In this document: positions 49,952 to 64,000 of the stretch, in pieces
How the letters are laid out: every line of letters begins with the position of its first letter
Position numbering within the stretch: position 1 is the first letter of the stretch
NCBI RefSeq assembly: GCF_021484805.1
Contig: NZ_CP090557.1
Span: 2,616,001 to 2,680,000, forward strand
Source: Tellurirhabdus bombi
Lineage (GTDB): Bacteria; Bacteroidota; Bacteroidia; Cytophagales; Spirosomataceae
DNA length: 64,000 bases
Direction: 5' to 3'
Translations under genes and position numbers: made by a program
Notes under the pieces: generated by a model
What the model was told of the DNA's origin: nothing
What the model saw: only the letters and a program-made list of their open reading frames with translations
Databases searched by the model: none

Positions 49952-50656
49952 TTAGGCTTTCAGGGCTGCATTGTACAATTCGTTGACCTTCGACCAGTTA
50001 ACGACGTTCCAGAAAGCGGTGATGTATTCAGGACGACGGTTCTGGTATTTTAGGTAGTAAGCATGTTCCCAAACATCAAGACCCAACACCGGTGTGCCTT
50101 TTTTGTCGGCCAAAGCCATCAATGGATTGTCTTGATTAGGCGTCGAGACAATTTCCAGTTCTTTGCCGTTCACGATCAGCCAGGCCCAGCCTGAACCAAA
50201 GCGGCCTGAAGCGGCTTTCGCCCATTCTTCCTTAAACTTATCGAACGAGCCAAATTTTTTGTTGATGGCTTCGGCAATGTTGCCGCTTGGCTGTTTGCCG
50301 CCGTTTGCCGAAAGAATATTCCAGAAGAAAGTATGGTTCCAGTGGCCACCACCGTTGTTGCGAATCGCTGCCGGCGTGCTGCTGTCAATTTTCTTCACCA
50401 ACTCGTCAATCGACATACCGGCCATGGCTGATCCGGCAACGGCTTTGTTCAGATTATCGACATACGCTTTGTGGTGCTTGCCGTGGTGGATCTCCATCGT
50501 CTGCTTGTCAATGTGCGGCTCCAGGGCACCCGCGTTGTAGGGGAGAGCAGGCAACGTGAACGGGCCATCCTGCTGGGTTGAGCTACCTAACGAGCGAAAA
50601 GCGGTTAGGGTCAACGCACTACCAAAGGCCAATTTTAAAAACTCACTGCGATTCAT
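49952..50656 (-). CDS. sodA: Superoxide dismutase, Mn-type, exported
   Basis: Superoxide dismutase of 234 residues. The mature enzyme (from about residue 30) has all metal ligands: His in [18 protein letters not shown], His in [11 protein letters not shown], and Asp/His in [16 protein letters not shown]. The GGGH stretch and the Gln in STPNQDNPL favour manganese over iron; this is inference from known Mn/Fe signatures. The N-terminus [20 protein letters not shown] looks like a signal peptide and resembles the MNRREFLK Tat leader, but the second Arg is Ser, so the export route is unclear. A periplasmic enzyme is likely. It is divergent from the cytochrome gene, with 167 bp between starts. Confidence 0.92.
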
Positions 50657-50823
50657 GTTGGGGAAGTTGTTTTTTGATGTGACGAATTCCTACTTAATTA
50701 CGAAACAAATAAAATGAGTTTTTGTCAGAAAATAGCTGCTTTTGACCGTTCGCGAAATCCTTTAAAATGAAAAGAGGCCAATCGGCTATCTTTACCCGAA
50801 CAACAAATACTTAATTCTTCTTG

Positions 50824-51789
50824 ATGAAACAGTTACAAAAACTGCTTTGGGCTCTGGTGTCAGTGCTGCTGCTTCAGTGCGTTAACCCAAAAGCGTATTC
50901 GCCCGTAAATGAACGGATTAGGGCTGTTACGCTGGCAAAATCTGACGCCGAGATTGAACGCGGGCGTTACCTTGTCAATCATGTGGCGGCCTGCATGGAT
51001 TGTCATTCCCGCCGCGATTATACCCGTTTGGCGGGTCCCATTGTACCCGGAACCTTAGGTGCAGGTGGTCAGAAATTTGGCAAAGAGCTGGGATTGCCCG
51101 GCACGGTTTACGGGAAAAATATCACCCCTTTTGCGCTTAAAGCCTGGTCTGACCAAGAGTTATTATTGGCAATTACGGCGGGCGTTTCGAAGAACGGAAA
51201 ACCGCTTTTTCCCATGATGCCTTCCCGGAATTATGCGCACATGGCCGAGAGCGATGCGAAAGCCGTTATTGCTTATTTACGAACGCTTGAACCCGTGGAA
51301 GGGACAACACCACCGGCCAAAATTGCCGCACCTGTGCGTATGGCCATGCGCATGATGCCGCACAAAGCGCATTTACAAACGCTACTCGACCGAAAAAATA
51401 GGATTGAATACGGGAAATACCTGGTTACGATGGCGGGTTGTGCCGACTGCCATACGAAGCGGACCATGGGCATGCTGGTAAAGAAGGCGGCCTTTTCGGG
51501 AGGGACGGAAATGCAGCTAGCGGGTGGAACCGTGCGTTCGGCCAATGTAACGCCCGATCAGGAAACGGGAATTGGCTCCTGGACAAAACAGGATTTTATT
51601 CGTCGTTTCAAAATGTATGATCCCGCAACCTATCAGGCACCAGCAGCGGGTGATGGTTTTAACACCATGATGCCCTGGACGCTCTACGCAAACATGACAG
51701 AAGACGATTTAGGGGCCATCTATGAGTATCTGCGCACGGTAAAACCCGCAAAAAATAAAGTGATGGTGTTTACACCCCGAAAACCATAG
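50824..51789 (+). CDS. Diheme c-type cytochrome
   Basis: Exported protein of 321 residues with two heme-binding motifs, CMDCH (about residue 58) and CADCH (about 211), each in a cytochrome c domain that starts with GRYLV or GKYLV and ends with an AYLRTLEP or EYLRTVKP helix. Possible axial Met residues are in PLFPMMPSRNY and NTMMPWTLY. The start is the ATG at 50824. The N-terminal hydrophobic stretch ends LLLQC, but Gln at the -1 position is unusual for a lipobox, so the protein is either a lipoprotein or a plain exported one. The role is periplasmic electron transfer; the partner enzyme is unknown. TATCTTTA at 50787-50794 is a weak -7 candidate. Confidence 0.87.
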   Translation: MKQLQKLLWALVSVLLLQCVNPKAYSPVNERIRAVTLAKSDAEIERGRYLVNHVAACMDCHSRRDYTRLAGPIVPGTLGAGGQKFGKELGLPGTVYGKNITPFALKAWSDQELLLAITAGVSKNGKPLFPMMPSRNYAHMAESDAKAVIAYLRTLEPVEGTTPPAKIAAPVRMAMRMMPHKAHLQTLLDRKNRIEYGKYLVTMAGCADCHTKRTMGMLVKKAAFSGGTEMQLAGGTVRSANVTPDQETGIGSWTKQDFIRRFKMYDPATYQAPAAGDGFNTMMPWTLYANMTEDDLGAIYEYLRTVKPAKNKVMVFTPRKP

Positions 51790-51800
51790 CCGCTTTAACC

Positions 51801-51827
51801 AAAAGAGCCAGCTTAGCTGGCTCTTTT
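51801..51827. terminator. Bidirectional terminator between cytochrome and recR
   Basis: Perfect 12-bp arms (AAAAGAGCCAGC at 51801-51812 and its complement at 51816-51827) around a TTA loop, with A-run before and T-run after. It lies between convergent genes and can serve both. Confidence 0.88.
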
Positions 51828-51834
51828 AAGAGGG

Positions 51835-52446
51835 TTACTCGTATGCGATTCGACTTAAAATACTGCGTCCGAGGGTAACTTCGTCGGCATATTCCAGATC
51901 GCCACCGATGGGAACACCCCGCGCGATGGTCGAAATTTTAACCTTGAAGGGCCGTAATTTCTTTTGCAGGTAGAAAGCCGTCGTGTCGCCCTCCATGGTT
52001 GGACTGAGCGCCAGAATCACTTCCCGGACCTGTTCGCTTTCGTCGCTTCGGAGCCGCTCAACCAGAGAATCGATGTGCAGATCGCTCGGACCAATGCCTT
52101 CAACGGGCGAAATAATCCCCCCTAAAACGTGGTACAATCCTTTGAACTGAGCCGTATTTTCGATGGCCAGCACATCGCGAATATCTTCCACAACGCAAAT
52201 GAGCGAGGCATCGCGTTTGCGGTTAGCGCAGATGCTGCACAGTTCCTCATCCGACAGGTTATGGCACTTGCGACAGTAGGTCACGTTGGTGCGCATGGCC
52301 TGCAAGGTCTCGGCCAGCCGCTGCGTTTGTTCTTCGTCGCGTTTGAGCAGGTGCAACACAAGGCGCAAGGCGGTTTTCTTACCAATACCCGGCAGCTTGG
52401 CGACCTCTTCAACCGCACTTTCTATTAATTTGGAAGGAAAATCCAA
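51835..52446 (-). CDS. recR: Recombination mediator protein RecR
   Basis: RecR of 203 residues, which with RecO/RecF loads RecA at single-stranded gaps. Order: helix-hairpin-helix ([20 protein letters not shown]), the zinc finger [16 protein letters not shown], the Toprim domain ([31 protein letters not shown]) and the C-terminal Walker-B-like segment ([20 protein letters not shown]). The family normally begins M(N/D)FPSKLIE; here the matching codon is TTG at 52446 (reads LDFPSKLIE), and no in-frame ATG lies just upstream, so I take TTG as the start. The protein is otherwise of normal length. Confidence 0.93.
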
Positions 52447-52543
52447 GAGAATTAAGCGATTAGTGGTTAAGAATCAGGACTATCTGTAACCGAATAAAGA
52501 GCGTGAGTGTTGTTACTCACAAGCCTTACCTGATGACTTCTAA

Positions 52544-52822
52544 TTAATTCAAGACTTCTGCCGAAATACCACGGCGGCAGATTTCGTTCCGTTTAGGGAC
52601 CAGTTCTTCCCAAGAGCCATTTTTAACCGTGCATTTACCTTTATAATGAATCAGGAGCGTACATTGTTCGGCCTGTTCGGGTGTATGCTCGCACACGTCC
52701 ATGAGCGTATCAATGACATGCTCGAACGTATTGACATCATCATTAAAGACAACAAGATTAAACACATCTGTCTCAACGACTTCATCCAGCACGTCTACCT
52801 CGTTTTCTTTGAAGGGTTGCAT
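52544..52822 (-). CDS. clpS: ATP-dependent Clp protease adaptor ClpS
   Basis: Small adaptor of 92 residues that delivers N-degron substrates to ClpAP. The core VFNLVVFNDDVNTFEHVIDT contains the FNDD-N motif that contacts the N-terminal residue and the Clp chaperone, followed by VCEHTPEQAEQCTLLIHYKG (with the conserved His-x-Lys/Gly region) and RGISAEVLN at the end. The N-terminal extension is short, as usual. A full TAAATTTG promoter element lies 25 nt upstream of the ATG. A weak stem (GTGAGT/ACTCAC, 52503-52520) after the stop may mark the transcript end. Confidence 0.92.
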   Translation of the reverse strand: MQPFKENEVDVLDEVVETDVFNLVVFNDDVNTFEHVIDTLMDVCEHTPEQAEQCTLLIHYKGKCTVKNGSWEELVPKRNEICRRGISAEVLN

Positions 52823-52847
52823 TGCAGCTAAAATTAAGTTTATTTAG

Positions 52848-52877
52848 CAAATTTACGAAAAATAGGCCTCTTCTGAA
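52848..52877 (-). promoter_or_regulatory. Promoter for clpS
   Basis: On the minus strand: TTC (52877-52875), a 19-nt spacer, then TAAATTTG (52855-52848), a full match to TAnnTTTG. The clpS start codon is 25 nt downstream. As at rarA, the -33 box is TTC rather than TTG. Confidence 0.5.
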
Positions 52878-52935
52878 AGGTTGATCCCTACGTATAAAGA
52901 ACCCGCTTTTCAGCCTAAAAGTTGCTTTTTAATTC

Positions 52936-54402
52936 ATGGATCCGTCGATTGCGCTCACAATTCTGATTGCCTATTTTGCGATGCTCATTGTGGTTTCCTG
53001 GTATACCGCCCGGGGAGCCGATACGAACACGTTTTTTACCGCTAACCGGCAGACGCCCTGGTATTTAGTGGCGTTTGCCATGATCGGTACGTCGCTATCG
53101 GGGGTTACCTTCATCTCGGTACCGGGGGCGGTGGGTGGCAAAGCCTTTTCTTACTTTCAGGTTATTCTGGGCAATATCGTGGGTTATTATGTCATTGCAA
53201 CGGTTTTGATGCCGCTGTATTACCGCATGAACCTGATTTCTATTTACGGCTATCTGGAAAAACGCTTTGGGTTCTGGTCGTACAAAACCGGAGCCGCTTT
53301 CTTTTTACTAGCCCGAACGGTTGGCTCAGCCATTCGCCTCTACATTGCCGCTGGGGTGTTGCAGATTGCCATTTTCAACAGTTTTGGTATTCCGTTTGAA
53401 GTGTCAGTTGCCATCACCATTCTGCTGATCTGGCTATACACGTTCAAAGGCGGGGTGAAAACCATCATCGTAACCGACACCCTCCAGACCACTTTCCTGG
53501 TAACGGCGGTGATTCTGACCATCATTCTGATTTCTAGGGAGTTGGGTCTCGGCTTCGGCGAGATGGTATCAACAATTTCACAAAGTGACTACTCCCAGAT
53601 TTTTTTCTGGGATGCCAACGACCCAAAAAACTTCTTCAAGCAGTTTATTTCCGGGATCTTCATCGCCATTGTCATGACGGGTCTGGACCAGGACCTGATG
53701 CAGAAAAACCTGACCTGCAAGAACATTGGTGAGGCTCAGAAGAACATGTACTGGTTTACGGGTACTTTTGCCGTTGTTGTCTTCCTCTTCCTGTCGTTGG
53801 GGGCGCTGCTCTACATTTACGCCAATACTAAAGGCATTGCGATTCCGGCCAAAACCGATGATTTGTATCCCATGCTGGCGCTCGATCATTTCGGTATGGT
53901 TGTTGGCATCACCTTTTTGCTAGGCATCACGGCGGCTACCTACGCCAGCTCTGATTCGGCTCTGACGGCCCTAACTACCTCGTTCTGCGTGGATTTTATG
54001 AACGTAGAAAACCGCCCGGAAGTTGAGCGGGCCCGAATCAAACATTGGGTGCACATCGGCTTTTCGGTGCTGTTTTTTGTGGTCATTATTATTTTCAATC
54101 GGCTCAACAGCCAAGACGTTGTAACGGCGGTTTTCGATCTGGCGGGCTATACCTACGGGCCGTTGCTGGGGCTGTATGCTTTTGGTCTGTTTTCGAAGCG
54201 TCCTGTTCGCGATGGGTGGGTGCCATTCGTATGCCTGGCTTCGCCATTTCTAACCCTGTATATCAATAATCATTCGGCAGAGTGGTTCGGCGGCTACCGA
54301 TTTGGCTTTGAGCGATTGGTGCTAAACGGATTAATTACGTACCTCGGTTTGTGGGCCGTTTCGCGCAAAACAGCTCTTGGAGAGCCAGCGGTTACGGCCT
54401 AA
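52936..54402 (+). CDS. Sodium:solute symporter (SSS family)
   Basis: Membrane transporter of 488 residues with 13 or so hydrophobic segments. Characteristic parts: MLIVVSWYTARGADTNTFFT, GTSLSGVTFISVPGAVGG (TM2-3 region with the sodium-site Ser/Thr), the FKGGVKTIIVTDTLQ loop, GLDQDLMQKNLTCKNIGEAQ and LLGITAATYASSDSALTALT (TM8, sodium binding), then FDLAGYTYGPLLGLYAFGLF. The family carries sugars, organic acids, amino acids or sialic acid with Na+; the sequence alone does not give the substrate and no catabolic genes adjoin. It stands alone between clpS and the operon at 54529. A small palindrome (GGCCTA/TAGGCC, 54396-54412) at the stop lacks a T-run. Confidence 0.88.
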   Translation: MDPSIALTILIAYFAMLIVVSWYTARGADTNTFFTANRQTPWYLVAFAMIGTSLSGVTFISVPGAVGGKAFSYFQVILGNIVGYYVIATVLMPLYYRMNLISIYGYLEKRFGFWSYKTGAAFFLLARTVGSAIRLYIAAGVLQIAIFNSFGIPFEVSVAITILLIWLYTFKGGVKTIIVTDTLQTTFLVTAVILTIILISRELGLGFGEMVSTISQSDYSQIFFWDANDPKNFFKQFISGIFIAIVMTGLDQDLMQKNLTCKNIGEAQKNMYWFTGTFAVVVFLFLSLGALLYIYANTKGIAIPAKTDDLYPMLALDHFGMVVGITFLLGITAATYASSDSALTALTTSFCVDFMNVENRPEVERARIKHWVHIGFSVLFFVVIIIFNRLNSQDVVTAVFDLAGYTYGPLLGLYAFGLFSKRPVRDGWVPFVCLASPFLTLYINNHSAEWFGGYRFGFERLVLNGLITYLGLWAVSRKTALGEPAVTA

Positions 54403-54461
54403 GCTATAGGCCTTAAAAGTTGATTAAAGAGCAAAAAAACTTAAGGGAATTACTCAAGGAA

Positions 54462-54493
54462 TTGCAATTCTCGGAATATTATCTATATTTTTG
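54462..54493 (+). promoter_or_regulatory. Promoter for the four-gene TonB-receptor operon
   Basis: TTG at 54462-54464, a 21-nt spacer, then TATTTTTG at 54486-54493, a full match to TAnnTTTG. The first gene starts 35 nt downstream at 54529. No Fur-box-like palindrome was recognised around it. Confidence 0.5.
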
Positions 54494-54528
54494 TCAGAAT
54501 ATTGAAAATTTTCCGATAGGCGCTATTG

Positions 54529-55071
54529 ATGAAACGTTTCCTTTCTCTTGCTTTGTGCTTGTTGCTGCTATACCACTCGCTGGGCTCGATTTTCGTGCTC
54601 CTCAGCGTGCAGTGGCAGGAAGAGCATGAGCTGTCGGAAAGACTCGTTTTATACCCTTCAACGGACAGCATGGTCGAATTTCATATTCCGCTCTACCAGC
54701 ATCCAAATGAAGCCATTCTCACCCAGAAAAGCCCAGACGGGTTTTCATACCGGGGAAAATACTACGAAGTAGTCAATATGAGCTTATCCGGGGATACGTT
54801 GCACATCACCGGCTACGTCAACAAGGCCAAAGAATTCTGGCAGCAGGATTTATTATCCCTGGTGAATGAGCAATTTGATCAGCCGTCTAATAGTAACCAA
54901 AAAGCCAGTAACCTACTTAAGCTCCTGGTAAAGGAATATTACCAGCCGCAACGAACTCTTACTCAATTGTTTTGGCTTGACTGGTCAGAGAACAGTCTGT
55001 TTGCCAACTATGTCTATCCCCGCACATCCTGCACACTTGCGCATAATTCCCCACCTCCTGAACTAGCCTGA
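54529..55071 (+). CDS. Hypothetical exported or membrane-anchored protein
   Basis: Protein of 180 residues that I do not recognise. The N-terminus (MKRFLSLALCLLLLYHSLGS, then IFVLLSVQW) is a signal peptide or single anchor. The rest is hydrophilic with no Cys pairs except one Cys near the end (PRTSCTLAHNSPPPELA). A stretch DGFSYRGKYYEVVNMSLSGD suggests beta structure, and the C-terminal half is helix-rich. It is the first gene after the promoter at 54462-54493, 117 bp before the next gene of the same strand, and a FecA-like receptor ends the group, so a role linked to metal or cofactor uptake is possible but unproven. The ATG at 54529 is preferred over a TTG just before it. Confidence 0.65.
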   Translation: MKRFLSLALCLLLLYHSLGSIFVLLSVQWQEEHELSERLVLYPSTDSMVEFHIPLYQHPNEAILTQKSPDGFSYRGKYYEVVNMSLSGDTLHITGYVNKAKEFWQQDLLSLVNEQFDQPSNSNQKASNLLKLLVKEYYQPQRTLTQLFWLDWSENSLFANYVYPRTSCTLAHNSPPPELA

Positions 55072-55188
55072 TTTTGTGATTTTTAGTTGCTCGCGCTTTG
55101 TGCTTTGCTGAAAGTACTCTGGGCTTGCTACGCTTCTCTGTAGGTATCAGGAAGCGCCAAAATCCTCTTTTTTATTTACGAATCAGGT

Positions 55189-56109
55189 ATGAAATCATTG
55201 ATATACGGATTGATAGCCGTTCTGGTTATTAGTGTTCGTTCGGTTGTGGCCCAAACCCTGACGGACGGAATTTACATGGGCAAAAACCAGCTTTGCGGAG
55301 GCATTGGCTATTCGTACGACAGCTGGAAATTTTATTGGGAGGGCACGTTTCGCCGCGAAAACTTTAACATTGGAACGGTTAGTACACAGATGGTTGTGCC
55401 AATGGCCACCTACGGGATTAGCCAAAGGCTGAACGTCATGGCGATGCTCCCTTACGTAAGGACCCACGCTACGGCTGGAACGCTGCGGGGTATGCAGGGC
55501 TTTCAGGATGCCACCGTCGGGTTGAAATTTCGGCCTATCTCGCTTCGGCCCGCTTCTGGGCTGGCTTTTGACTGGTCGGTTGTCGGGGCGGCTTCGATAC
55601 CTACTACCAATTATGTAGCCGATTTTCTGCCCCTATCCATTGGGTTTCAGTCGAAAACGGCTCAACTGCGGACCATCCTGCACCTACGCCTGAAACAAGG
55701 CTGGTTCGTGACCGGCCAGGCAGGATACATTGCCCGCAGTAATGTCAAAATCGACCGGGAGGCTTATTATACGGATCGCCAGCATCGGACAAACATGGTC
55801 GACATGCCCAATGTGGCTGACTATACGGCGCGTCTGGGTTACATGAAATCGGAGTTTATTCTGGAAGGGTTCATGGAAAAAATGACAACCCTGGGCGGAA
55901 CCGATATTCGCAAAAATGACATGCCGTTTCTTTCCAACCGCATGAATTTTACTAAAGTAGGAGCGATGGTTACGCTTCGGCCAAGAGCCTGGAAAGGTTT
56001 CGGGCTGACTGCCTCGGCAGGTACAACGCTGGCGGGTCGTAATGTGGGCGAAAGCACCACGTTCGGTGGCTCGATTCTCTATCTGACTCATCATGCCATC
56101 CGGCACTGA
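55189..56109 (+). CDS. Predicted outer-membrane beta-barrel protein, function unknown
   Basis: Protein of 306 residues with a signal peptide (MKSLIYGLIAVLVISVRSVVAQ) and alternating hydrophobic/polar strands throughout: LCGGIGYSYDSWKFYWEG, TYGISQRLNVMAMLPYVRTH, LRGMQGFQDATVGLKFRP, QGWFVTGQAGYIARSNV and VGAMVTLRPRAWKGFGLTAS. This pattern resembles the broad 'transporter/MetA-pathway' barrel group, but I cannot name a family with certainty. It lies 29 bp before the PAP2-type lipoprotein gene, and with the TonB receptor further downstream probably forms an operon. It could be a pore or an envelope partner of the receptor. Confidence 0.7.
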   Translation: MKSLIYGLIAVLVISVRSVVAQTLTDGIYMGKNQLCGGIGYSYDSWKFYWEGTFRRENFNIGTVSTQMVVPMATYGISQRLNVMAMLPYVRTHATAGTLRGMQGFQDATVGLKFRPISLRPASGLAFDWSVVGAASIPTTNYVADFLPLSIGFQSKTAQLRTILHLRLKQGWFVTGQAGYIARSNVKIDREAYYTDRQHRTNMVDMPNVADYTARLGYMKSEFILEGFMEKMTTLGGTDIRKNDMPFLSNRMNFTKVGAMVTLRPRAWKGFGLTASAGTTLAGRNVGESTTFGGSILYLTHHAIRH

Positions 56110-56138
56110 TTGACTTCTACCTACCAACTTTTGATTTT

Positions 56139-57689
56139 ATGAAAACATCATTCCGTACGATAAGCCTTTGGGCAACAGTTGCCATTTTTGTATCATTTCT
56201 TCTTTATGCCTGCAATGAGAAAGTCGTTGAACAGGAAAATTTTGACCCCACTGCCCCAAGTGTTGTTAGCAAAGATGGCGGGAACTGGAAAACGTTTTTA
56301 GTCCCGACGCAGCACGCTGCTGCCGCCATTGCTGCCCCTACTTCCGTAAATTCAGATGCGTACAAGAAAGAAGTTGACGAAGTGGTGCAGCTTCAGAAAA
56401 CATTGACCGAAAGCCAGAAAGAAGCCATCCGGTACTGGAATGGCGGGGCCGTGCTGCGCTGGAATCAGATTATGCGCGAGTTGGTGGCAAAATATAACCT
56501 GCCTCCTTACCAGAAAGAAGATGGAACGTATCCTGCTCCGGATGCAGCCAATCCACTGGCATATCCATTTTTCCCGTTTGCCAATCCGCCGTATGCCGCC
56601 CGGGCGTATGGTTACATCAGCATCGCCCAGTATGATGCGTTAGTGGCTGCCTGGAAGCACAAATTTGCGCACAACCGTCCCGCGTTGACAAAAACTGCGT
56701 CAACCGTAACCGCTTTGGTACCTTTAAATGCTGATCTGCCATCTTATCCGTCGGAAGATGCCGTGCTGGCTTCGGTGACTTTGGAAATGATGAAAGTGAT
56801 GTTTCCGGGTGAAGTAGTTTATTTACAAGCTAAAGCAGACGAGCAGAAAGCTGCCGCTTTGTGGGCCGGTAAAGCCGTTCGGAGCGACATTGAAGCGGGT
56901 GACGCCTTAGGAAAAACCATTGCCGCGCAGTTTGTGGCGCGGGCAAAAACGGACAACGCGGGAAAAGCCGGTGGAAATAAATCGGTTTGGGATGGCTTTG
57001 CGACAAAAATAAAAGCCCAGGGAGAACGCCCGTGGATTAGTCTGGAGACCCCAGCTCGGCCACCAATGCTGCCTGTCTTCGGTGAAGTAAAGTCATTTGT
57101 TTTGTCCGCGGCAGACATTGCGAAGCTTCGCCCCGGCCCACCGCCTTCTACGAATTCTGAGCAAATGAAAAAAGAAGCCGACGAGGTATTGTCTTACGCC
57201 CAAAGCCTGACTCGTGAGCAGACGCGCATTGTGCATTTCTGGGCAGATGGCGCGGGAACTTATACACCTCCGGGCCACTGGAACGCCATTGCAGCAGAAA
57301 TGATTTGGAAAGCCAAAATGAACGATCTGGAAGCCGCCAAGGTATTTGCCATGCTAGGTAGCGCTGAGTTCGATGCGGCAATCTGCTGCTGGGAGGCGAA
57401 ATACTACTACTTCAATCCGCGTCCGTCAACCATCAATCCAAAAATAAAAACGGCAACGGGCGTTCCTAATTTCCCAGCTTATACGTCGGGTCACTCTACG
57501 TTTTCCGGTGCGGCGGCTACCGTATTGGGCGGTTTATTCCCAGCCGAGAAAGATCGTTTGATGAACATGGCGCAGGAAGCGTCTATGTCTCGCCTGTATG
57601 GGGGCATCCACTTCCGGAGCGACTGCGAAGTTGGTTTGAAATGCGGCATTGCCATTGGGCAGGAAACGCTAAAATGGTCTGCACAGTAA
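56139..57689 (+). CDS. PAP2/vanadium-haloperoxidase-type phosphatase lipoprotein with internal duplication
   Basis: Lipoprotein of 516 residues (signal ending FLLYACNEK, lipobox LYAC). The C-terminal half carries the acid-phosphatase/haloperoxidase signature in order: KYYYFNPRPS (about 420-429), YTSGHSTFSGAAATVLGG (about 447) and SRLYGGIHFRSD (about 483). The first half repeats the same layout without the catalytic residues: KHKFAHNRPA (about 172), SYPSEDAVLASVTLEMM (about 200), and LWAGKAVRSDIEAGDALG (about 239), the last clearly parallel to LYGGIHFRSDCEVGLKCG. Haloperoxidases of this fold also consist of duplicated helical bundles. The protein should bind phosphate or vanadate at the outer face of the envelope; the true substrate is unknown. 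The TonB receptor starts 10 bp downstream. Confidence 0.85.
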   Translation: MKTSFRTISLWATVAIFVSFLLYACNEKVVEQENFDPTAPSVVSKDGGNWKTFLVPTQHAAAAIAAPTSVNSDAYKKEVDEVVQLQKTLTESQKEAIRYWNGGAVLRWNQIMRELVAKYNLPPYQKEDGTYPAPDAANPLAYPFFPFANPPYAARAYGYISIAQYDALVAAWKHKFAHNRPALTKTASTVTALVPLNADLPSYPSEDAVLASVTLEMMKVMFPGEVVYLQAKADEQKAAALWAGKAVRSDIEAGDALGKTIAAQFVARAKTDNAGKAGGNKSVWDGFATKIKAQGERPWISLETPARPPMLPVFGEVKSFVLSAADIAKLRPGPPPSTNSEQMKKEADEVLSYAQSLTREQTRIVHFWADGAGTYTPPGHWNAIAAEMIWKAKMNDLEAAKVFAMLGSAEFDAAICCWEAKYYYFNPRPSTINPKIKTATGVPNFPAYTSGHSTFSGAAATVLGGLFPAEKDRLMNMAQEASMSRLYGGIHFRSDCEVGLKCGIAIGQETLKWSAQ

Positions 57690-57699
57690 ACAACCACTG

Positions 57700-60114
57700 A
57701 TGAAGTTTATTTATTCTCTTTTATTCATTTCCTTGTTCTTGCATCCCGGTGGTTCTGTGGGGCAGTCGACTACGGGTAGTATAAAAGGCAATGTCTTTAA
57801 TGCGAAGTGGGTGCCTCTGGAAGGTGTTGCCATACGCTTGCTGGAAACAGGTCAGGGAACGCTAACGGACGCTTCGGGTACGTTTGTTTTTCCTAACCTG
57901 CCACGGGGACGGTATACCATCGAAAGTTCTTTTTTAGGCTACGAAACCCAGCGTGAGCCAGTGCGCGTAGGAGAGAGTAGTTCCAAACTGGTTACGTTCA
58001 AATTGGCTGAACAGGCGCAATTGCTGAGTGAGGTGGACGTGGAAGGCAAGCGGCTGCGCATTGCGGAAGAGCTAACCGAAATCAACGGCACGTACCTAAA
58101 TACGGGTAAGCGGAACGAGGTCGTTCGGTTAGCTAACATTGACGCTAACATTGCGGAGAAAACGCCCCGACAGGTATTTGCGCGCATTCCGGGTGTGTTT
58201 GTCTACGACATGGACGGGGCTGGTAATCAGGTGAATGTGGCCACGCGAGGACTGGATCCGCACCGTTCCTGGGAAATGAATATTCGGCAAAACTCCGTCA
58301 TTACCAATTCGGATATGTACGGCTATCCGGCGAGTCATTATTCGCCGCCGATGGAAAGCATTGACCGGGTGGAATTGGTGCGTGGAACGGGATCGTTGCA
58401 ATACGGAGCGCAGTTTGGCGGTATGATTAATTACGTGACCAAAAGTGCCGACACAACCCGCAAGGTTGGTTTTGAAAGCATCAATTCCGTAGGGTCTTAT
58501 GGGTTGTTGAGTACATATAACGCTCTGGGCGGACGGGTAGGAAAGTTGACCTACTACGCCTACTACTACAAACGCGCCTCCGAAGGCTACCGCGATAATT
58601 CACGCTCCCAGGCGGAGTCTCAATTTGCGCACCTGGAGTATCGCTTTTCTTCCCGCTTGAAAGTGCAGGCAGAGCTGGGACGATCAACGTATGTGTATCA
58701 GATTCCGGGGCCTTTGACCGATTCCATGTTCCACCAGAACCCGCGCCAGTCAACCCGCAGCCGGAATTACTTCAATCCCGATATTTATGTGCCATCCATA
58801 AAATTGGACTGGCAGATTTCGGATCGGACGCACCTGAGCTGGACCACATCGGCGGTGTTGGGTGCTCGCAACAGTGTTCAACTGGACGCTTTCGCGACGG
58901 TGCAGGATATCATCAATCCGCAAACGGGGCAGTACCGGGGCCGTCAGGTAGACATTGACCATTTTAATAGCTACACCACTGAACTTCGGTTGTTGCATCA
59001 CTACCAAATTGGCAGAATCGGCTCTACCTTGGCGGTGGGCGCGCAGGGAATTACGACGGATTTGCACCGCCAGCAGCAAGGAAAAGGCACCACAGGAACC
59101 GATTTTGATTTGAGTATTGACCCGTCGGGTTGGGGCCGTGACCTGCATCTGTATACCAATAACATCGCCTTATTTGCTGAAAATCAATTTCGTTTAACGT
59201 CCCGTTTGTCGGTATCGCCCGGTATTCGGGTTGAGAATGGCCTGACAAAAATGCGGGGTACCATCAGTTATTATCCGGCCAATGACTTGCCCAACAACAT
59301 TGCGCACCGGTTCGCCTTGCTCGGCGTGAGCGCCCAGTATCGGTTAACGCCAGAACTGCGGTTGTTTGGCGGCTGGTCGCAAGCGTATAGACCCGTCATT
59401 TTCAAGGACATCATTCCGGCATCGGTTTACGAACGCGTGGACAACAACCTGAAAGATGCTTTTGGGTACAATGCAGAACTCGGCATTAGCGGTCAGTGGA
59501 AAGGCGTTCACCTCAACGTGAGTGTGTTCGATCTATTGTATCGGAACCGCCTGGGAACCTTGGTGAATACGGATGCTTCCGGCACGTCGACCGTGCTAAG
59601 AACCAACATTGGCGATAGCCGGAACCAGGGCGTTGAAGCGTTGATCGAAGCCAGTATCGTTCAGACAAAAGCCTTGTCGGTCAATGTGTTTACGTCAACG
59701 GCCTACATTGATGCGCGTTACACCAATGCGCAGGTAGCCACTGGAAACGAAAACCGGTCGGTTCGGGGAAACCGGGTTGAATCGGTGCCGGTCTGGACAA
59801 GCCGGAATGGGTTGACCCTGCGCCACCGGACCGCTAGCTTGACCATCCTGTACAGCTACGTAGGCAAAACATTTTCGGACGCGTTGAACACGCCCGTGGC
59901 CACGGCAAACGGGGCAAGAGGACCAGTTCCAGCGTATGGCTTACTGGATTTGGCTGCAACCTGGCGAATTGGCCGGCAATATTCTATTCGTGCGAGCCTC
60001 AACAACCTGGCTAATAAGCAGTATTTCACCAAGCGGCCAACCTTTTATCCGGGTCCGGGCGTTTGGTCTTCCGACGGGCGGAGTGCCGTCGTTACGGTGG
60101 GTATTCGGATATAA
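57700..60114 (+). CDS. TonB-dependent receptor, FecA-like, with CarboxypepD_reg domain
   Basis: Outer-membrane receptor of 804 residues. Signal peptide (ending GSVGQ), CarboxypepD_reg-like domain (about 25-110: GSIKGNVFNAKWVPLEGV; GTLTDASGTFVFPNLPRGRY), plug (about 140-260: IPGVFVYDMDGAGNQVNVAT with RGLDPHRSWEMNIRQ; VELVRGTGSLQYGAQFGGMI) and a barrel ending in SAVVTVGIRI. The segments SQAYRPVIFKDIIP and YFTKRPTFYPGPGVWSSDGR are characteristic of FecA-type receptors for iron(III) dicitrate and similar chelates. Ferric chelate uptake is the best guess, not proven. No STN domain is present. It is the last gene of the probable four-gene operon and is followed by a strong hairpin. Confidence 0.9.
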   Translation: MKFIYSLLFISLFLHPGGSVGQSTTGSIKGNVFNAKWVPLEGVAIRLLETGQGTLTDASGTFVFPNLPRGRYTIESSFLGYETQREPVRVGESSSKLVTFKLAEQAQLLSEVDVEGKRLRIAEELTEINGTYLNTGKRNEVVRLANIDANIAEKTPRQVFARIPGVFVYDMDGAGNQVNVATRGLDPHRSWEMNIRQNSVITNSDMYGYPASHYSPPMESIDRVELVRGTGSLQYGAQFGGMINYVTKSADTTRKVGFESINSVGSYGLLSTYNALGGRVGKLTYYAYYYKRASEGYRDNSRSQAESQFAHLEYRFSSRLKVQAELGRSTYVYQIPGPLTDSMFHQNPRQSTRSRNYFNPDIYVPSIKLDWQISDRTHLSWTTSAVLGARNSVQLDAFATVQDIINPQTGQYRGRQVDIDHFNSYTTELRLLHHYQIGRIGSTLAVGAQGITTDLHRQQQGKGTTGTDFDLSIDPSGWGRDLHLYTNNIALFAENQFRLTSRLSVSPGIRVENGLTKMRGTISYYPANDLPNNIAHRFALLGVSAQYRLTPELRLFGGWSQAYRPVIFKDIIPASVYERVDNNLKDAFGYNAELGISGQWKGVHLNVSVFDLLYRNRLGTLVNTDASGTSTVLRTNIGDSRNQGVEALIEASIVQTKALSVNVFTSTAYIDARYTNAQVATGNENRSVRGNRVESVPVWTSRNGLTLRHRTASLTILYSYVGKTFSDALNTPVATANGARGPVPAYGLLDLAATWRIGRQYSIRASLNNLANKQYFTKRPTFYPGPGVWSSDGRSAVVTVGIRI

Positions 60115-60184
60115 GAGCCGACGTATACTTGCTGCTAAGCAGACGTGATAAAGTTTTTACGATAAATTACACAGAAGTCAAAAC

Positions 60185-60229
60185 AAACAACGGGGCCAGA
60201 AACTTTCTATTTTCTGAGCCCCGTTGTTT
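60185..60229 (+). terminator. Rho-independent terminator after the TonB receptor
   Basis: Arms AAACAACGGGGC-CAGAAA (60185-60202) and TTTCTG-GCCCCGTTGTTT (60211-60229) pair over 18 bp with one bulged A at 60217 and an 8-nt loop. A short T-rich end follows. It lies 70 bp after the receptor stop and 66 bp before the GlgE-like start. Confidence 0.85.
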
Positions 60230-60295
60230 ATGTTAGGGCTTTCTTTTCATTTATCGCATCCATTAACTTGCGTTTCGCTAAGCTGGCATATCACC

Positions 60296-62044
60296 ATGAG
60301 TCGTACCACCCGAAAAAGTCCGACAAAGAAATCAAACACAGAAAGCCTGATCCAACACGAGGCGGGGCAGGTTCGTGCTGTCATTGAGCGGGTTAGTCCT
60401 GAGCTGGATGGCGGGCGTTTTCCGATCAAGGTACTTTCGGGAGAAACGGTAGTGGTCGAAGCGGACATCTTCACGGACAACCACGAGCCATTAACGGCTG
60501 TGCTGCTGTACAAGCACGCCGGTGATACGGAGTGGATCGAATCGCCCCTGACTTTTATCGATAATGACCGCTGGACGGGAAGCTTCTTACTGGAAAGCCC
60601 CGGACGCTATATATATACCATTGAAGCCTGGGTAGCTGACAAACGGCAATACGCGGCTCGTTACAAAGAATTAGTTGTTGAAGTAGATCCGCAAAAAGCC
60701 GGTTTTAGCGCGTGGTATGGCCTTTTCCCTCGCTCGATTTCCGAAGAGCCGGGGCAACACGGAACCTTCAGGGAGGTAGAACGAGCGTTGCCGCGTATCG
60801 CTGCGTTGGGTTTTGACGTGCTTTATTTGCCGCCTATTCACCCAATTGGCGTGACTGGTCGGCGGGGCAAGAACAACCAGTCCGGCGCTCAGGCGGGAGA
60901 TCCGGGTAACCCGTATAGCGTTGGGAATGAGTTGGGTGGACATACGGCCATTCATCCCGAGTTGGGCACGCTTGATGATTTTATTCACCTGATTCAAATT
61001 GCCCGCAACTACGAAATAGACGTGGCGCTGGATTTTGCGGTTCAGTGCTCACCCGACCACCCCTGGGTGAAAGAACATCCGAATTGGTTTAAAAAACCTG
61101 ATGCAGGGCAGAATGGTGTGGCCGAGCCGGAGATTTACGCCTTCGATTTCGAGACGGAAGATTGGGCCGCTTTGTGGCTGAGTCTGAAGCAGGTTCTGCT
61201 GACCTGGGCTTCGTGGGGTGTTCGGATTGTTCGGGCTTCGAGTGCCGACCAAAAGCCTTTTGCGTTCTGGGAGTGGATTATTCGAGAAGTAAAAAAAGAG
61301 TATCCAGACCTGGTCTTTCAGGCTGAGGCGTTCACGATGCCTAAAATCATGCGGCAGTTGGCTAAACGGGGTTTTAGCCAGTCGTGTACCTATTACATCT
61401 GGCGCAACACTAAACACGAGTTACAGGAATACGTGAATGAGCTGCGGTGGAGCGAAATGCAGACCTATTACCGGCCTGTTTTCTGGCCCGCAACACTAGA
61501 CATAAATCCGTTTAATTTACAGGCTGGCCACGAACCGCAGGCGCTTATCCGGTATTTTATGGCGGCCACGCTGTCGGCCAATTACGGTATTTTCGGACCT
61601 TCGTTTGAGCTAATGGCTTACGAAGCCATTCCAGGTAAGGAAGAATACCTGAACTCCGAAAAATACGAAATCCGGCACTGGAACCGCAACCGAAACAACC
61701 GCTTAAGCTACCTGATTGGCATTGTAAACCGGTTGCGGAAGGAAAATGCGGCTTTGCAAACAACCAATAATCTGACTTTCTGCCGCATTGACGATGATGC
61801 CCTGATGGCGTATTTAAAAGTAACGGAGGCCAACCGACTGCTGATTGTCGTCAACCTGGATACCTATAACAATCGGGGCGGAATGGTTCAGGTTCCAATC
61901 GGACAACTGGGCATCTCGGAGGAGCAAGAATACACCGTACATGATCTGCTGACGGATGCCTATTATACCTGGAAAGGTGCCTGGAACTATGTCGAACTCG
62001 ATCCGTACGTCCTGCCCATGCATTTATTAAGAATTGAGTTGTAG
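60296..62044 (+). CDS. GlgE-like GH13 protein lacking the catalytic nucleophile
   Basis: Protein of 582 residues similar to GlgE, the maltose-1-phosphate maltosyltransferase, from start to end: N-terminal beta domain (RAVIERVSPELDGGRFPIK), LYLPPIHPIGVTGRRGKNN, VALDFAVQCSPDHPWVKEHP, FQAEAFTMPKIM with the acid/base Glu, YYIWRNTKHELQEYV, NYGIFGPSFEL and LNSEKYEIRHWN. The nucleophile motif R-V-D-N-P-H reads R313-A-S315-S-A-D: the Asp is Ser (TCG at 61238-61240). The stretch that GlgE proteins carry after the NWF/EWF motif (YAENPPKKYQ) is also replaced by a shorter, unrelated one (DAGQNGVAEPEIYAF). I chose the ATG at 60296 (MSRTTRKSP) because the codons before it overlap the terminator. It is followed by glgB. 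It may be a pseudoenzyme with a binding or regulatory role in glycogen metabolism, or have another chemistry. Confidence 0.85.
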   Translation: MSRTTRKSPTKKSNTESLIQHEAGQVRAVIERVSPELDGGRFPIKVLSGETVVVEADIFTDNHEPLTAVLLYKHAGDTEWIESPLTFIDNDRWTGSFLLESPGRYIYTIEAWVADKRQYAARYKELVVEVDPQKAGFSAWYGLFPRSISEEPGQHGTFREVERALPRIAALGFDVLYLPPIHPIGVTGRRGKNNQSGAQAGDPGNPYSVGNELGGHTAIHPELGTLDDFIHLIQIARNYEIDVALDFAVQCSPDHPWVKEHPNWFKKPDAGQNGVAEPEIYAFDFETEDWAALWLSLKQVLLTWASWGVRIVRASSADQKPFAFWEWIIREVKKEYPDLVFQAEAFTMPKIMRQLAKRGFSQSCTYYIWRNTKHELQEYVNELRWSEMQTYYRPVFWPATLDINPFNLQAGHEPQALIRYFMAATLSANYGIFGPSFELMAYEAIPGKEEYLNSEKYEIRHWNRNRNNRLSYLIGIVNRLRKENAALQTTNNLTFCRIDDDALMAYLKVTEANRLLIVVNLDTYNNRGGMVQVPIGQLGISEEQEYTVHDLLTDAYYTWKGAWNYVELDPYVLPMHLLRIEL

Positions 62045-62181
62045 GGGGAGAAAGAGTTTATTCACACCTTTGTCCAATCCGGTTGAAGGGAGGGCTGTAT
62101 TTATTCCAGCATTTTTGTTTTATTTCATAAAAAATAGGAAATAGTCTGGATCAACCAGAAAATAGTTTAGAATACTAGCTG

Positions 62182-64000
62182 ATGGCAAAACGTAAAACGA
62201 CTACCGATAATATTCCTGAAACGACACCCGCCAAAAAAACGTCGCCGCGGAAGAAAAACGTTGAATCTGTTGAAGCAAGTGCTGCGCCTACGTCGCCAGA
62301 AACCAGCGTAGAAGCACCAGTCGTTGTGGCGGAAACCGTATTTGTGGACACGTCAAAATCCGTTTGGAACCATACTCGGTTCTCCGATTTTGACATTCAT
62401 CTTTTCCGTTCCGGGAAACATTACCGCTTGTACGAAAAATTAGGTTCGCACGTAGTGGAAGTCGTGGGCGTTGTTGGAACCTATTTTGCCGTCTGGGCAC
62501 CGTCGGCGCGGTCGGTATCCGTCATTGGTAATTTCAACGGCTGGAATCGTCAGAGTCATCAGTTAAGCGTCCGATGGGATAGCTCAGGCATCTGGGAAGG
62601 TTTTATTCCGCATGTTGGTCGGGGAGAAGTCTACAAATACTACATCCACGGGGCCAACGGGCTGCATTTTGAAAAAGGCGATCCGTACGCACTGCGCTGG
62701 GAAACACCGCCACAGACGGCTTCAGTCGTGTGGGATACCTGGTATGAATGGAAAGACGACTACTGGATTCGCAATCGGGGTAAGTTCAACGCGTTGAACA
62801 AGCCATTTTCGGTTTATGAAGTACACCTGGCTTCCTGGCGGCGTGATCCAAGCAATCCGAGTCGTTTTCTGAGTTACGAGGAAATTGCGGACGCGCTGGT
62901 GCCGTACGTGAAAGAAATGGGCTTCACGCACGTGGAATTTATGCCCGTTATGGAGTACCCTTATTCGCCATCGTGGGGGTATCAGATTACGGGCTATTTT
63001 GCGCCGAGCAGCCGTTTCGGAACACCGCAGGGCTTTATGGAACTCGTTGAGCGGCTTCACCAGGAGAATATTGGGGTATACCTGGACTGGGTACCTTCAC
63101 ACTTTCCGGGCGATGCCCACGGGCTGTATGAGTTTGATGGCTCGCACCTGTATGAGCACCCAGACATGCGCAAGGGTTACCATCCCGACTGGAAAAGCTA
63201 TATTTTCAATTATAGCCGCAACGAAGTCCGGTCGTTTTTGATCTCTAATGCCATGTTCTGGCTGGATCGTTTCCATATCGATGGCTTGCGGGTTGATGCG
63301 GTGGCGTCGATGCTGTACCTCGATTATTCGCGGAATCACGGAGAATGGGAGCCTAACATTTTCGGAGGGCGGGAAAACCTGGAAGTGATTTCGCTGCTTA
63401 AAGAGTTGAACGAAGCTGTATATAAAGAATACCCTGAAATACAGACTATTGCCGAAGAGTCAACGGCTTTCCCGGGCGTATCCCGACCTGCTTTCATGGG
63501 CGGCTTAGGCTTCGGTATGAAGTGGATGATGGGCTGGATGAACGATACACTGCGCTATTTCGAGCGTGATCCGTATTACCGCCGCTGGCACCAGGAAGAA
63601 ATTACATTCAGTACGGTCTACGCCTTTTCCGAAAATTTCATGCTGCCCCTTTCGCACGATGAAGTTGTATACGGAAAGAAATCGCTGGTAAGCAAAATGC
63701 CGGGCGATGAATGGCAACGCTTTGCCAATTTACGCCTTCTATTTTCCTATATGTTCACCCATCCAGGCACCAAGCTGCTGTTTATGGGAGGGGAATTTGG
63801 GCAGACCTCGGAATGGAAATTTGAGGGAAGTCTCGACTGGCACCTGCTGGATTTTGCGCCGCACCAGGGCATGAAAGAATGCATGAAAGCGTTGAACAAC
63901 GTGTACCGGAATGAGCTGGCGCTCCACGAGCAGAGTTTCGTACCAGAAGGTTTTGAGTGGATTGACACCTCCGACCGCGAAAACAGCATTATTGTGTTCG
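62182..64000 (+). CDS. glgB: 1,4-alpha-glucan branching enzyme GlgB, 3' truncated by window end
   Basis: Branching enzyme, 606 codons visible with no stop before the end of the window. It opens with a low-complexity, Lys/Pro/Ala-rich extension of about 60 residues (MAKRKTTTDNIPETTPAKK), then a CBM48 domain (FAVWAPSARSVSVIGNFNGW) and the GH13 core: FSVYEVHLASWRR, HVEFMPVMEYPYSPSWGYQ, YLDWVPSHFPGDAHGLYEFD, GLRVDAVASMLYLDYSR (nucleophile Asp), TIAEESTAFPGVSRP (acid/base Glu) and PLSHDEVVYGKKSLVSKMPG. All catalytic residues are present, in contrast to the GlgE-like neighbour 137 bp upstream. It introduces alpha-1,6 branches in glycogen. The VHGK of most GlgB proteins is VYGK here. CACCTTTG at 62065-62072, 23 nt after a TTG, is a weak promoter candidate. 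Confidence 0.95.
   Translation, partial: MAKRKTTTDNIPETTPAKKTSPRKKNVESVEASAAPTSPETSVEAPVVVAETVFVDTSKSVWNHTRFSDFDIHLFRSGKHYRLYEKLGSHVVEVVGVVGTYFAVWAPSARSVSVIGNFNGWNRQSHQLSVRWDSSGIWEGFIPHVGRGEVYKYYIHGANGLHFEKGDPYALRWETPPQTASVVWDTWYEWKDDYWIRNRGKFNALNKPFSVYEVHLASWRRDPSNPSRFLSYEEIADALVPYVKEMGFTHVEFMPVMEYPYSPSWGYQITGYFAPSSRFGTPQGFMELVERLHQENIGVYLDWVPSHFPGDAHGLYEFDGSHLYEHPDMRKGYHPDWKSYIFNYSRNEVRSFLISNAMFWLDRFHIDGLRVDAVASMLYLDYSRNHGEWEPNIFGGRENLEVISLLKELNEAVYKEYPEIQTIAEESTAFPGVSRPAFMGGLGFGMKWMMGWMNDTLRYFERDPYYRRWHQEEITFSTVYAFSENFMLPLSHDEVVYGKKSLVSKMPGDEWQRFANLRLLFSYMFTHPGTKLLFMGGEFGQTSEWKFEGSLDWHLLDFAPHQGMKECMKALNNVYRNELALHEQSFVPEGFEWIDTSDRENSIIVF

Follow-up and report, generated by a model that had tools for sequence, protein, structure and literature searches.

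The window analysed here, a stretch of 64,000 nucleotides from Tellurirhabdus bombi, contains a gene descended from the maltosyltransferase gene glgE whose product (P0001) has very likely lost GlgE chemistry, judging from its sequence. In P0001 the nucleophile and all four phosphate ligands are changed, most contacts to the sugar are retained, and the gene has been under purifying selection in a genome in which no maltokinase was detected. We see about an even chance that P0001 is a GlgE without maltosyltransferase chemistry that would have been kept as a non-catalytic alpha-1,4-glucan- or maltose-binding protein working with the branching enzyme GlgB.

Gene and protein

The gene and the site of its largest deletion are:

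60296..62044, plus strand: gene of P0001, a putative GlgE-derived pseudoenzyme; open frame, 582 aa, with Pfam GlgE N/S and GLGE_C
60635..60670 (approximate), plus strand: junction of an in-frame loss of 76-78 aa, most of domain S, seen as a gap between matches to the same-genus GlgE

P0001 matches the Pfam families GlgE N/S (1.6e-29) and GLGE_C (1.3e-24), and the GlgE-specific profiles PF11896 (103.9 bits, cut-off 25) and PF21702 (86.7 bits, cut-off 27) score above their cut-offs. The best 8 matches among the sequences of solved structures are all GlgE, with S. coelicolor GlgE at about 1e-117. An AlphaFold2 model of P0001 reached a mean pLDDT of 91.5 and a pTM of 0.89, with values below 50 for residues 270-276, the stub of the lid. 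In a structure search with this model the best 15 PDB matches were all GlgE, too.

The frame is undamaged, as had been stated in the preliminary description of this DNA: the 582 codons are open and all indels are in frame, so that P0001 does not show the broken frame of a pseudogene. Sequencing error is an unlikely source of the changes because these are numerous, dispersed and in frame and the genome consists of one contig.

The similarity to GlgE had been thought to run along the whole protein, which is not the case, as the 76-78 residues of domain S are missing. The same-genus GlgE comprises 665 aa; it matches P0001 in two parts, with 76 codons between them after residue ~115. The break is also seen in comparison with other relatives, and the Pfam GlgE N/S profile is matched at positions 2-94 of 179 only. 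In GlgE of M. thermoresistibile domain S comprises residues 123-204; its proposed role is to shift the domain B lid across the partner protomer's active site (PMC4663749). With domain S as the lid-mover, P0001 would therefore have lost part of the lid, the element moving it, the phosphate pocket and the nucleophile together.

Active site, phosphate pocket and sugar subsites

In S. coelicolor numbering, Asp394 is the nucleophile and Glu423 the acid/base of GlgE (PMC5076824). The phosphate is bound by Asn352, Lys355, Tyr357 and Asn395, the sugar in subsite -1 by Gln324, Arg392 and Asp480 and in subsite -2 by Lys264, Asn268, Asp359, Lys534 and Tyr535 (PMC4526890). Alignment with GlgE gave the following positions in P0001:

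60863..60877, plus strand: -2 subsite, Lys264 replaced by Arg190, Asn268 kept as Asn194 (roles from PMC4526890)
61043..61045, plus strand: Gln250 (Sco Gln324), kept
61124..61132, plus strand: remnant of the domain B lid/phosphate segment, Asn352 replaced by Glu277, Asp359 by Glu279; 5 residues including Lys355 and Tyr357 deleted
61232..61249, plus strand: RASSAD instead of RVDNPH, Asp394 replaced by Ser315, Asn395 by Ser316, His397 by Asp318
61325..61327, plus strand: acid/base Glu344 (Sco Glu423), kept
61499..61501, plus strand: Asp402 (Sco Asp480), kept
61661..61666, plus strand: Lys456-Tyr457 (Sco Lys534-Tyr535, -2 subsite), kept
61988..61990, plus strand: Tyr565, aligned with Sco Tyr646 (secondary glucan site; role from PMC5076824), kept

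The GlgE segment RVDNPHTKP aligns with RASSADQKP in P0001, so Asp394 corresponds to Ser315 (codon TCG, 61238-61240). The segment ENPPKKYQDIYP of GlgE aligns with a P0001 segment which is shorter by 5 residues (AEP-----EIYA). The preliminary description had reported the change from RVDNPH to RASSAD with Ser at residue 315, a replaced segment around YAENPPKKYQ and an acid/base Glu remaining in FQAEAF; the alignment agrees in all three points, adds that the ENPPKKYQ segment is also five residues shorter, and identifies the Glu as Glu344. RASSAD was not found outside P0001 among the GlgE sequences read.

Taken in order, K264, N268, Q324, N352, K355, Y357 and D359 correspond to R, N, Q, E, gap, gap and E in P0001, and R392, D394, N395, E423, D480, K534 and Y535 to R, S, S, E, D, K and Y. 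Hence none of the five residues forming the nucleophile and the phosphate ligands is kept (5/5 changed), whereas seven of the nine other site residues are identical and the remaining two are conservative exchanges (K to R, D to E). This combination of retained sugar contacts (7/9) and lost nucleophile and phosphate ligands (0/5) is the pattern of a glucan-binding pseudoenzyme.

The replacement exceeds chance. Among 172 near-invariant columns, defined as identical in at least 70 of the 71 canonical family sequences, 33 are changed in P0001 (7 of them as gaps), compared with at most 5 (median 0) when a canonical sequence is left out and scored in the same way. Fifteen of the 33 changed columns are located at Sco 345-362 and 394-398. 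Such a local replacement of the active site in an otherwise constrained protein is what a retained non-catalytic function predicts. In summary of the comparison with GlgE (GH13_3), P0001 shares with it descent, the domains N, A and C, most of the -1 and -2 subsites, the acid/base Glu and the equivalent of Asp480, but differs in the nucleophile, the phosphate ligands, domain S, the incomplete lid and a genome without detected maltokinase.

Genome context and supply of maltose-1-phosphate

Two further features flank the gene:

60180..60234, plus strand: inverted repeat with 17-nt arms, 88% complementary, a possible terminator between the upstream TonB-receptor gene and the gene of P0001
62182..64000, continuing past the window end, plus strand: glgB, branching enzyme (NCBIfam GlgB equivalog over cut-off; full frame 693 aa)

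The intact glgB noted previously directly downstream begins after a gap of 137 bp and has a full frame of 693 aa. The inverted repeat is absent from the sites of the terminator scan. In one relative (L133) glgE and glgB are separated by a maltokinase gene and small frames. The adjacency of the two genes in the window is weak evidence for a functional link, because gene loss between glgE and glgB would yield it as well.

The host genome (one contig, 4.94 Mb, 99.9% complete) contains a single GlgE-like gene. It had been suggested that RASSAD proteins might form a clade which co-occurs with a second, canonical glgE; among the sequences read the motif occurs in P0001 only, and no second canonical glgE was found when the genome was searched. 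In the same-genus genome glgE is canonical and is followed by a maltokinase gene on the same strand.

Repeated profile searches of the host genome for maltokinase (TIGR02457) gave no match, and neither a TreS (TIGR02456) over cut-off nor a TreS-maltokinase fusion was found there. By comparison, all nine relatives examined, including the same-genus genome, possess both a TreS-maltokinase fusion and a stand-alone maltokinase. As neither a stand-alone nor a TreS-fused maltokinase was found, the host lacks the known trehalose route to maltose-1-phosphate. The genome encodes two unfused TreS-like proteins (582 and 552 bits, cut-off 678), which are also present in several relatives. A remnant of a maltokinase gene near P0001 was looked for, too, and nothing better than E 0.73 was obtained in window positions 50001-64000.

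The other known source of maltose-1-phosphate is GlgC-GlgM (PMC11046441, PMC4981310). For GlgM (TIGR02149, cut-off 302), four host GT4 proteins scored at most 71 bits. They come from seven stretches surrounding GT4-like matches, the glgA model having 17 matches in the genome, and belong to eight frames weakly resembling the GlgM-type protein of the genome G396 described below. As P0001 has lost the nucleophile, the phosphate ligands and domain S and the trehalose-route donor is missing, it should not, on this sequence evidence, be annotated as a maltosyltransferase.

Descent and selection

In a tree of 55 rows P0001 is located within a clade of 15 rows with 100/100 support, the other members of which are all canonical and include Spirosoma, Arsenicibacter, Fibrella, Rudanella and the same-genus genome. 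According to this placement P0001 is a vertical GlgE orthologue by descent. A horizontal origin is disfavoured by the tree, by a gene order around P0001 which is common to Spirosoma lacussanchae and Siphonobacter, and by GC3 values of 0.574 for P0001 and 0.575 for glgB.

A codon branch model (8 taxa, 570 codons) yielded an omega of 0.113 for the P0001 branch and 0.079 for the background. Fixing omega at 1 on the P0001 branch was rejected with a loss of 66.4 lnL units (2*deltalnL = 132.7), while equality with the background was not (2*deltalnL = 2.8). When four canonical tips were used as foreground their omega values were 0.045-0.085 and thus below that of P0001; with the two changed loops masked, the P0001 value was 0.105. 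A terminal neutral phase on the branch fitted best at the lowest value tried, a phase of 0.10 costing 1.2 and one of 0.15 costing 2.2 lnL units, compared with about 1.4-1.5 selected substitutions per codon; a brief neutral phase in recent time may thus have occurred. Because the branch is under purifying selection, plain decay is unlikely. The earlier view of a retained function instead of simple decay thus gains support from the omega of 0.113, the rejection of omega=1 and the independent clade of genus g32 presented in the next section.

Early decay deserves a closer look, as P0001 might be a relic that became unneeded after the loss of maltokinase and drifts in a still unbroken frame. The known supply of substrate is gone, 33 of 172 near-invariant columns are changed, most of one domain is lost and P0001 forms the longest end branch of its clade, all as expected for a relic. 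Neutrality is rejected, however, and a neutral phase of at least 0.15 substitutions per codon costs more than 2 lnL units, so that any such phase would have been short for drift to replace five neighbouring residues as well as every phosphate ligand. Moreover, the indels are all in frame, and the g32 clade has persisted through 7 species under selection. We therefore regard a drifting relic as unlikely.

A second clade without nucleophile

Among 222 genomes of the family we found a separate GlgE-derived clade in seven species of genus g32, for which we know of no name. The proteins are 61-87% identical to each other and comprise 660-662 aa, which suggests that domain S is probably kept; each genome contains one GlgE-like match at 1e-100. 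In all seven proteins the nucleophile is replaced by Ala, Val or Ile, the acid/base Glu by Gly, and none of the four phosphate ligands is kept. The equivalents of Arg392, Asp480, Lys264, Lys534, Asp359 and Tyr646 are retained, Asn268 is replaced by Gly in 7/7, Tyr535 by Phe in four and Gln324 by Lys in one. In the member L205 nucleophile and phosphate ligands are changed in 5/5 positions and 7/9 of the other site residues are kept, the same numbers as in P0001.

No match to maltokinase was obtained in the g32 genomes (G144, G180, G189, G597, G602, G606, G610). The gene order glgE-derived gene, dipeptidase gene, glgB on one strand is present in 7/7. The assignment of the dipeptidase to M19 is based on a test of the protein of G144, to which four others are 93-94% identical; the two remaining ones were assigned from near-identical N-termini.

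Within the clade omega is 0.085, and fixing it at 1 loses about 950 lnL units. In the free model two background branches and the stem hit the length bound, and we relied on the in-clade omega and the one-ratio omega of 0.072.

A common origin of P0001 and the g32 clade is disfavoured by the tree, in which P0001 belongs to the 15-row canonical clade (100/100); as far as the sequences tell, the two lineages are independent. They share 19 changed near-invariant columns, where 6.9 are expected (p = 1.6e-7), and outside the two loops 7 compared with 2.5 expected (p = 0.004). Like P0001, the g32 proteins lack the nucleophile and the phosphate pocket, are linked to glgB, are under purifying selection and occur in genomes without detected maltokinase. 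They differ from P0001 in their separate origin, the probably retained domain S, the additional loss of the acid/base Glu and the dipeptidase gene in between.

Siphonobacter and the distribution in family and phylum

In Siphonobacter (6 genomes) maltokinase is missing as in P0001's host, and phosphate ligands are changed (K355H, N395Q). Unlike in P0001, the triad of Asp, Glu and Asp is kept, the protein has its full length (644-664 aa), and no glgB was detected within the 19 kb taken around the gene.

The active site was read in 87 genomes of the family. All four phosphate ligands are intact in 71/71 genomes with maltokinase (Mak+; 71 of 135 Mak+ genomes read) and altered in 15/16 without (Mak-; all 12 Mak-, GlgE-positive ones of 200 genomes plus 4 further genomes), a tally of related and not independent genomes which corresponds to at least three events (window species, Siphonobacter and g32 clade). 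The seven GlgE-positive genomes G599, G600, G601, G605, G607, G608 and G612 were left out of this tally and of the maltokinase test. The exception among the Mak- genomes, G066, is a 71%-complete assembly; one of the altered cases, G011, is an 88%-complete assembly with a split gene.

A general rule by which the loss of maltokinase results in a dead GlgE fails in the phylum. Of 395 genomes sampled, 17 are PF11896-positive and Mak-, and 15 of these have a canonical site with the four ligands and the triad present, one of them with Phe for Tyr535. The other two are P0001's own genome and G241, a weak match to the profile without a GlgE match. One of the 15 canonical genomes, G396, possesses a GlgM-type gene (TIGR02149, 538 bits, cut-off 302) near glgE, which could explain its kept pocket.

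The Siphonobacter variant and the g32 clade bear on the possibility that P0001 performs a new reaction, in which the remodelled pocket with Glu344, Asp402 and Asp318 at the place of His397 would act on maltodextrins, e.g. by inverting hydrolysis or by transfer with another nucleophile. P0001 retains the acid/base Glu and the equivalent of Asp480, His397 is replaced by Asp or Glu in both lineages without nucleophile, Siphonobacter keeps the triad together with K355H and N395Q, and GlgE was reported to disproportionate maltodextrins without maltose-1-phosphate (PMC11046441). On the other hand, Asp is missing from the nucleophile position of P0001 and its lid is truncated, and the acid/base Glu is Gly in 7/7 members of the g32 clade. 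The preliminary description had left the choice between a pseudoenzyme and a new reaction; the pseudoenzyme seems to fit better because the g32 clade is without the acid/base Glu, too, and we consider a new reaction distinctly unlikely.

Proposed function

It seems that the Spirosoma-related host lost its maltose-1-phosphate supply and kept an intact, selected gene derived from glgE. Maltokinase would have been lost first or together with the active site, since a build-up of maltose-1-phosphate was reported to be toxic (PMC4526890). With nucleophile and all four phosphate ligands gone, and with them most of domain S and a portion of the lid, the chemistry would have disappeared; most -1 and -2 sugar contacts and the Tyr of domain C are retained, and the gene is under purifying selection. 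Crystal structures exist of the inactive D394A variant of Sco GlgEI in complex with maltose-1-phosphate and in complex with maltodextrin (PMC4526890; PDB titles), so that a GlgE may bind ligand even when the nucleophile is lost. P0001 may bind chain ends of alpha-1,4-glucan or maltose, and might in this way hold or guide GlgB on glycogen or sense glucan, as dead GH13 subunits do elsewhere.

Several observations count against a role of P0001 as a glucan-binding partner of GlgB. Glu344 is kept and would not be needed in a purely binding protein, Siphonobacter has no nearby glgB, and the Mak- genomes of the phylum are mostly canonical. Moreover, the end branch of P0001 is longer than any other in its clade, it carries many radical changes, and its omega is somewhat above background. 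Finally, the host has two unfused TreS-like proteins, and the GlgC-GlgM route is excluded in part only.

P0001 might also be a structural or regulatory part which does not bind glucan and is kept for contact with another protein only, e.g. GlgB. The neighbouring glgB, linked in 7/7 g32 members as well, would fit this, but a pure scaffold would need none of the -1 and -2 sugar contacts that are largely kept in both lineages, which makes protein contact alone rather improbable. That P0001 is an active GlgE, supplied with maltose-1-phosphate via GlgC-GlgM and using another catalytic residue, is hardly credible: such a route may exist in the Mak-less G396 of the same phylum, but the D394A variant is described as inactive (PMC4526890), the phosphate ligands of P0001 are all lost, and the four scanned host GT4 proteins remain at or below 71 bits for TIGR02149.

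Plant ISA2 is an inactive GH13 isoamylase and the partner of ISA1. A non-catalytic P0001 working with GlgB would resemble it as a dead GH13 protein serving an active alpha-glucan enzyme; ISA2 belongs to another subfamily, has another partner, and no relation by descent is claimed. As a more tentative idea, which we judge to be possible though less probable than the role proposed for P0001 itself, there could be a recurrent bacterial route with ISA2 as its plant counterpart, in which GlgE is turned into a non-catalytic, glucan-binding partner of GlgB after its supply is lost, independently in at least two lineages (three with the pocket variant of Siphonobacter). If so, GlgE would have had a second, structural role in building the glycogen particle while it was still an active enzyme.

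Genetic evidence has validated GlgE as a drug target (PMC5076824), and the literature surveyed portrays it as an enzyme. In the titles and abstract openings of open-licence PMC literature we found no report of a natural GlgE without nucleophile. A selected GlgE-derived protein without nucleophile, phosphate pocket and trehalose route to its substrate, together with an independent clade in seven species, opens a non-catalytic role of GlgE to experiment and allows GlgE chemistry to be separated from any scaffolding part in glycogen synthesis. Annotation by PF11896/PF21702 will label such genomes as GlgE-positive although the pathway probably cannot run.

As a minor observation, none of 21 genomes yielded a GlgA scoring above the TIGR02095 cut-off. 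The best GlgA match per genome covers the N-terminal half only, in frames of 270-292 aa, and of 359 aa in the host.

GlgE and the routes to maltose-1-phosphate

In six Siphonobacter genomes (L134-L139) the catalytic triad of GlgE is intact, but two of the phosphate ligands are exchanged, Lys355 for His and Asn395 for Gln (S. coelicolor numbering). A maltokinase, the enzyme of the trehalose route to maltose-1-phosphate, was not found in these six genomes. From its residues, the Siphonobacter GlgE is a candidate for the use of another donor, e.g. in maltodextrin disproportionation. Canonical GlgE is encoded in twelve genomes of the families f38 and f52 (L177-L188), and no maltokinase match was obtained in these twelve either.

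The Bacteroidota genome G396, also without maltokinase, carries near its canonical glgE (L175) a gene that we take to be glgC-like from its N-terminal motif. A GlgM-type GT4 gene (L175, 6231-8774; TIGR02149, 538 bits) is located there, too. GlgM is described as mostly actinobacterial in a review (PMC11046441).

Gene order and altered glgE genes

Upstream of glgE the window contains, at 52936-60114, genes for a symporter, a protein of about 310 amino acids, a PAP2-type protein and a TonB receptor. Judged by frame sizes and starts, with families assigned from the window proteins only, this order up to and including glgE appears to be common to the window and Siphonobacter (L197-L200, L203, L204). 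Part of it appears to be common to Spirosoma lacussanchae (L045) as well.

In all seven Spirosomataceae genomes of the g32 clade, whose GlgE-derived protein lacks nucleophile and acid/base (L194-L196, L241-L244), a dipeptidase gene, M19 according to Pfam for the L194 protein, separates this glgE from glgB.

In G011, an 88%-complete assembly, glgE lies in two frames (L201, 634-2594), with Thr352 and His355 and with Asp394 retained; the split reflects either decay or an assembly error.

A further GlgE homologue without nucleophile and acid/base is encoded in a Saprospiraceae MAG (CALMIT010000026.1; L091, 4511-6475), on a 7.5-kb contig which itself gave no match to maltokinase or glgB. Nucleophile Asp and acid/base Glu are both replaced by Ala (RVAVPQ and FLSAAF, respectively), and the protein forms a long branch in the tree.
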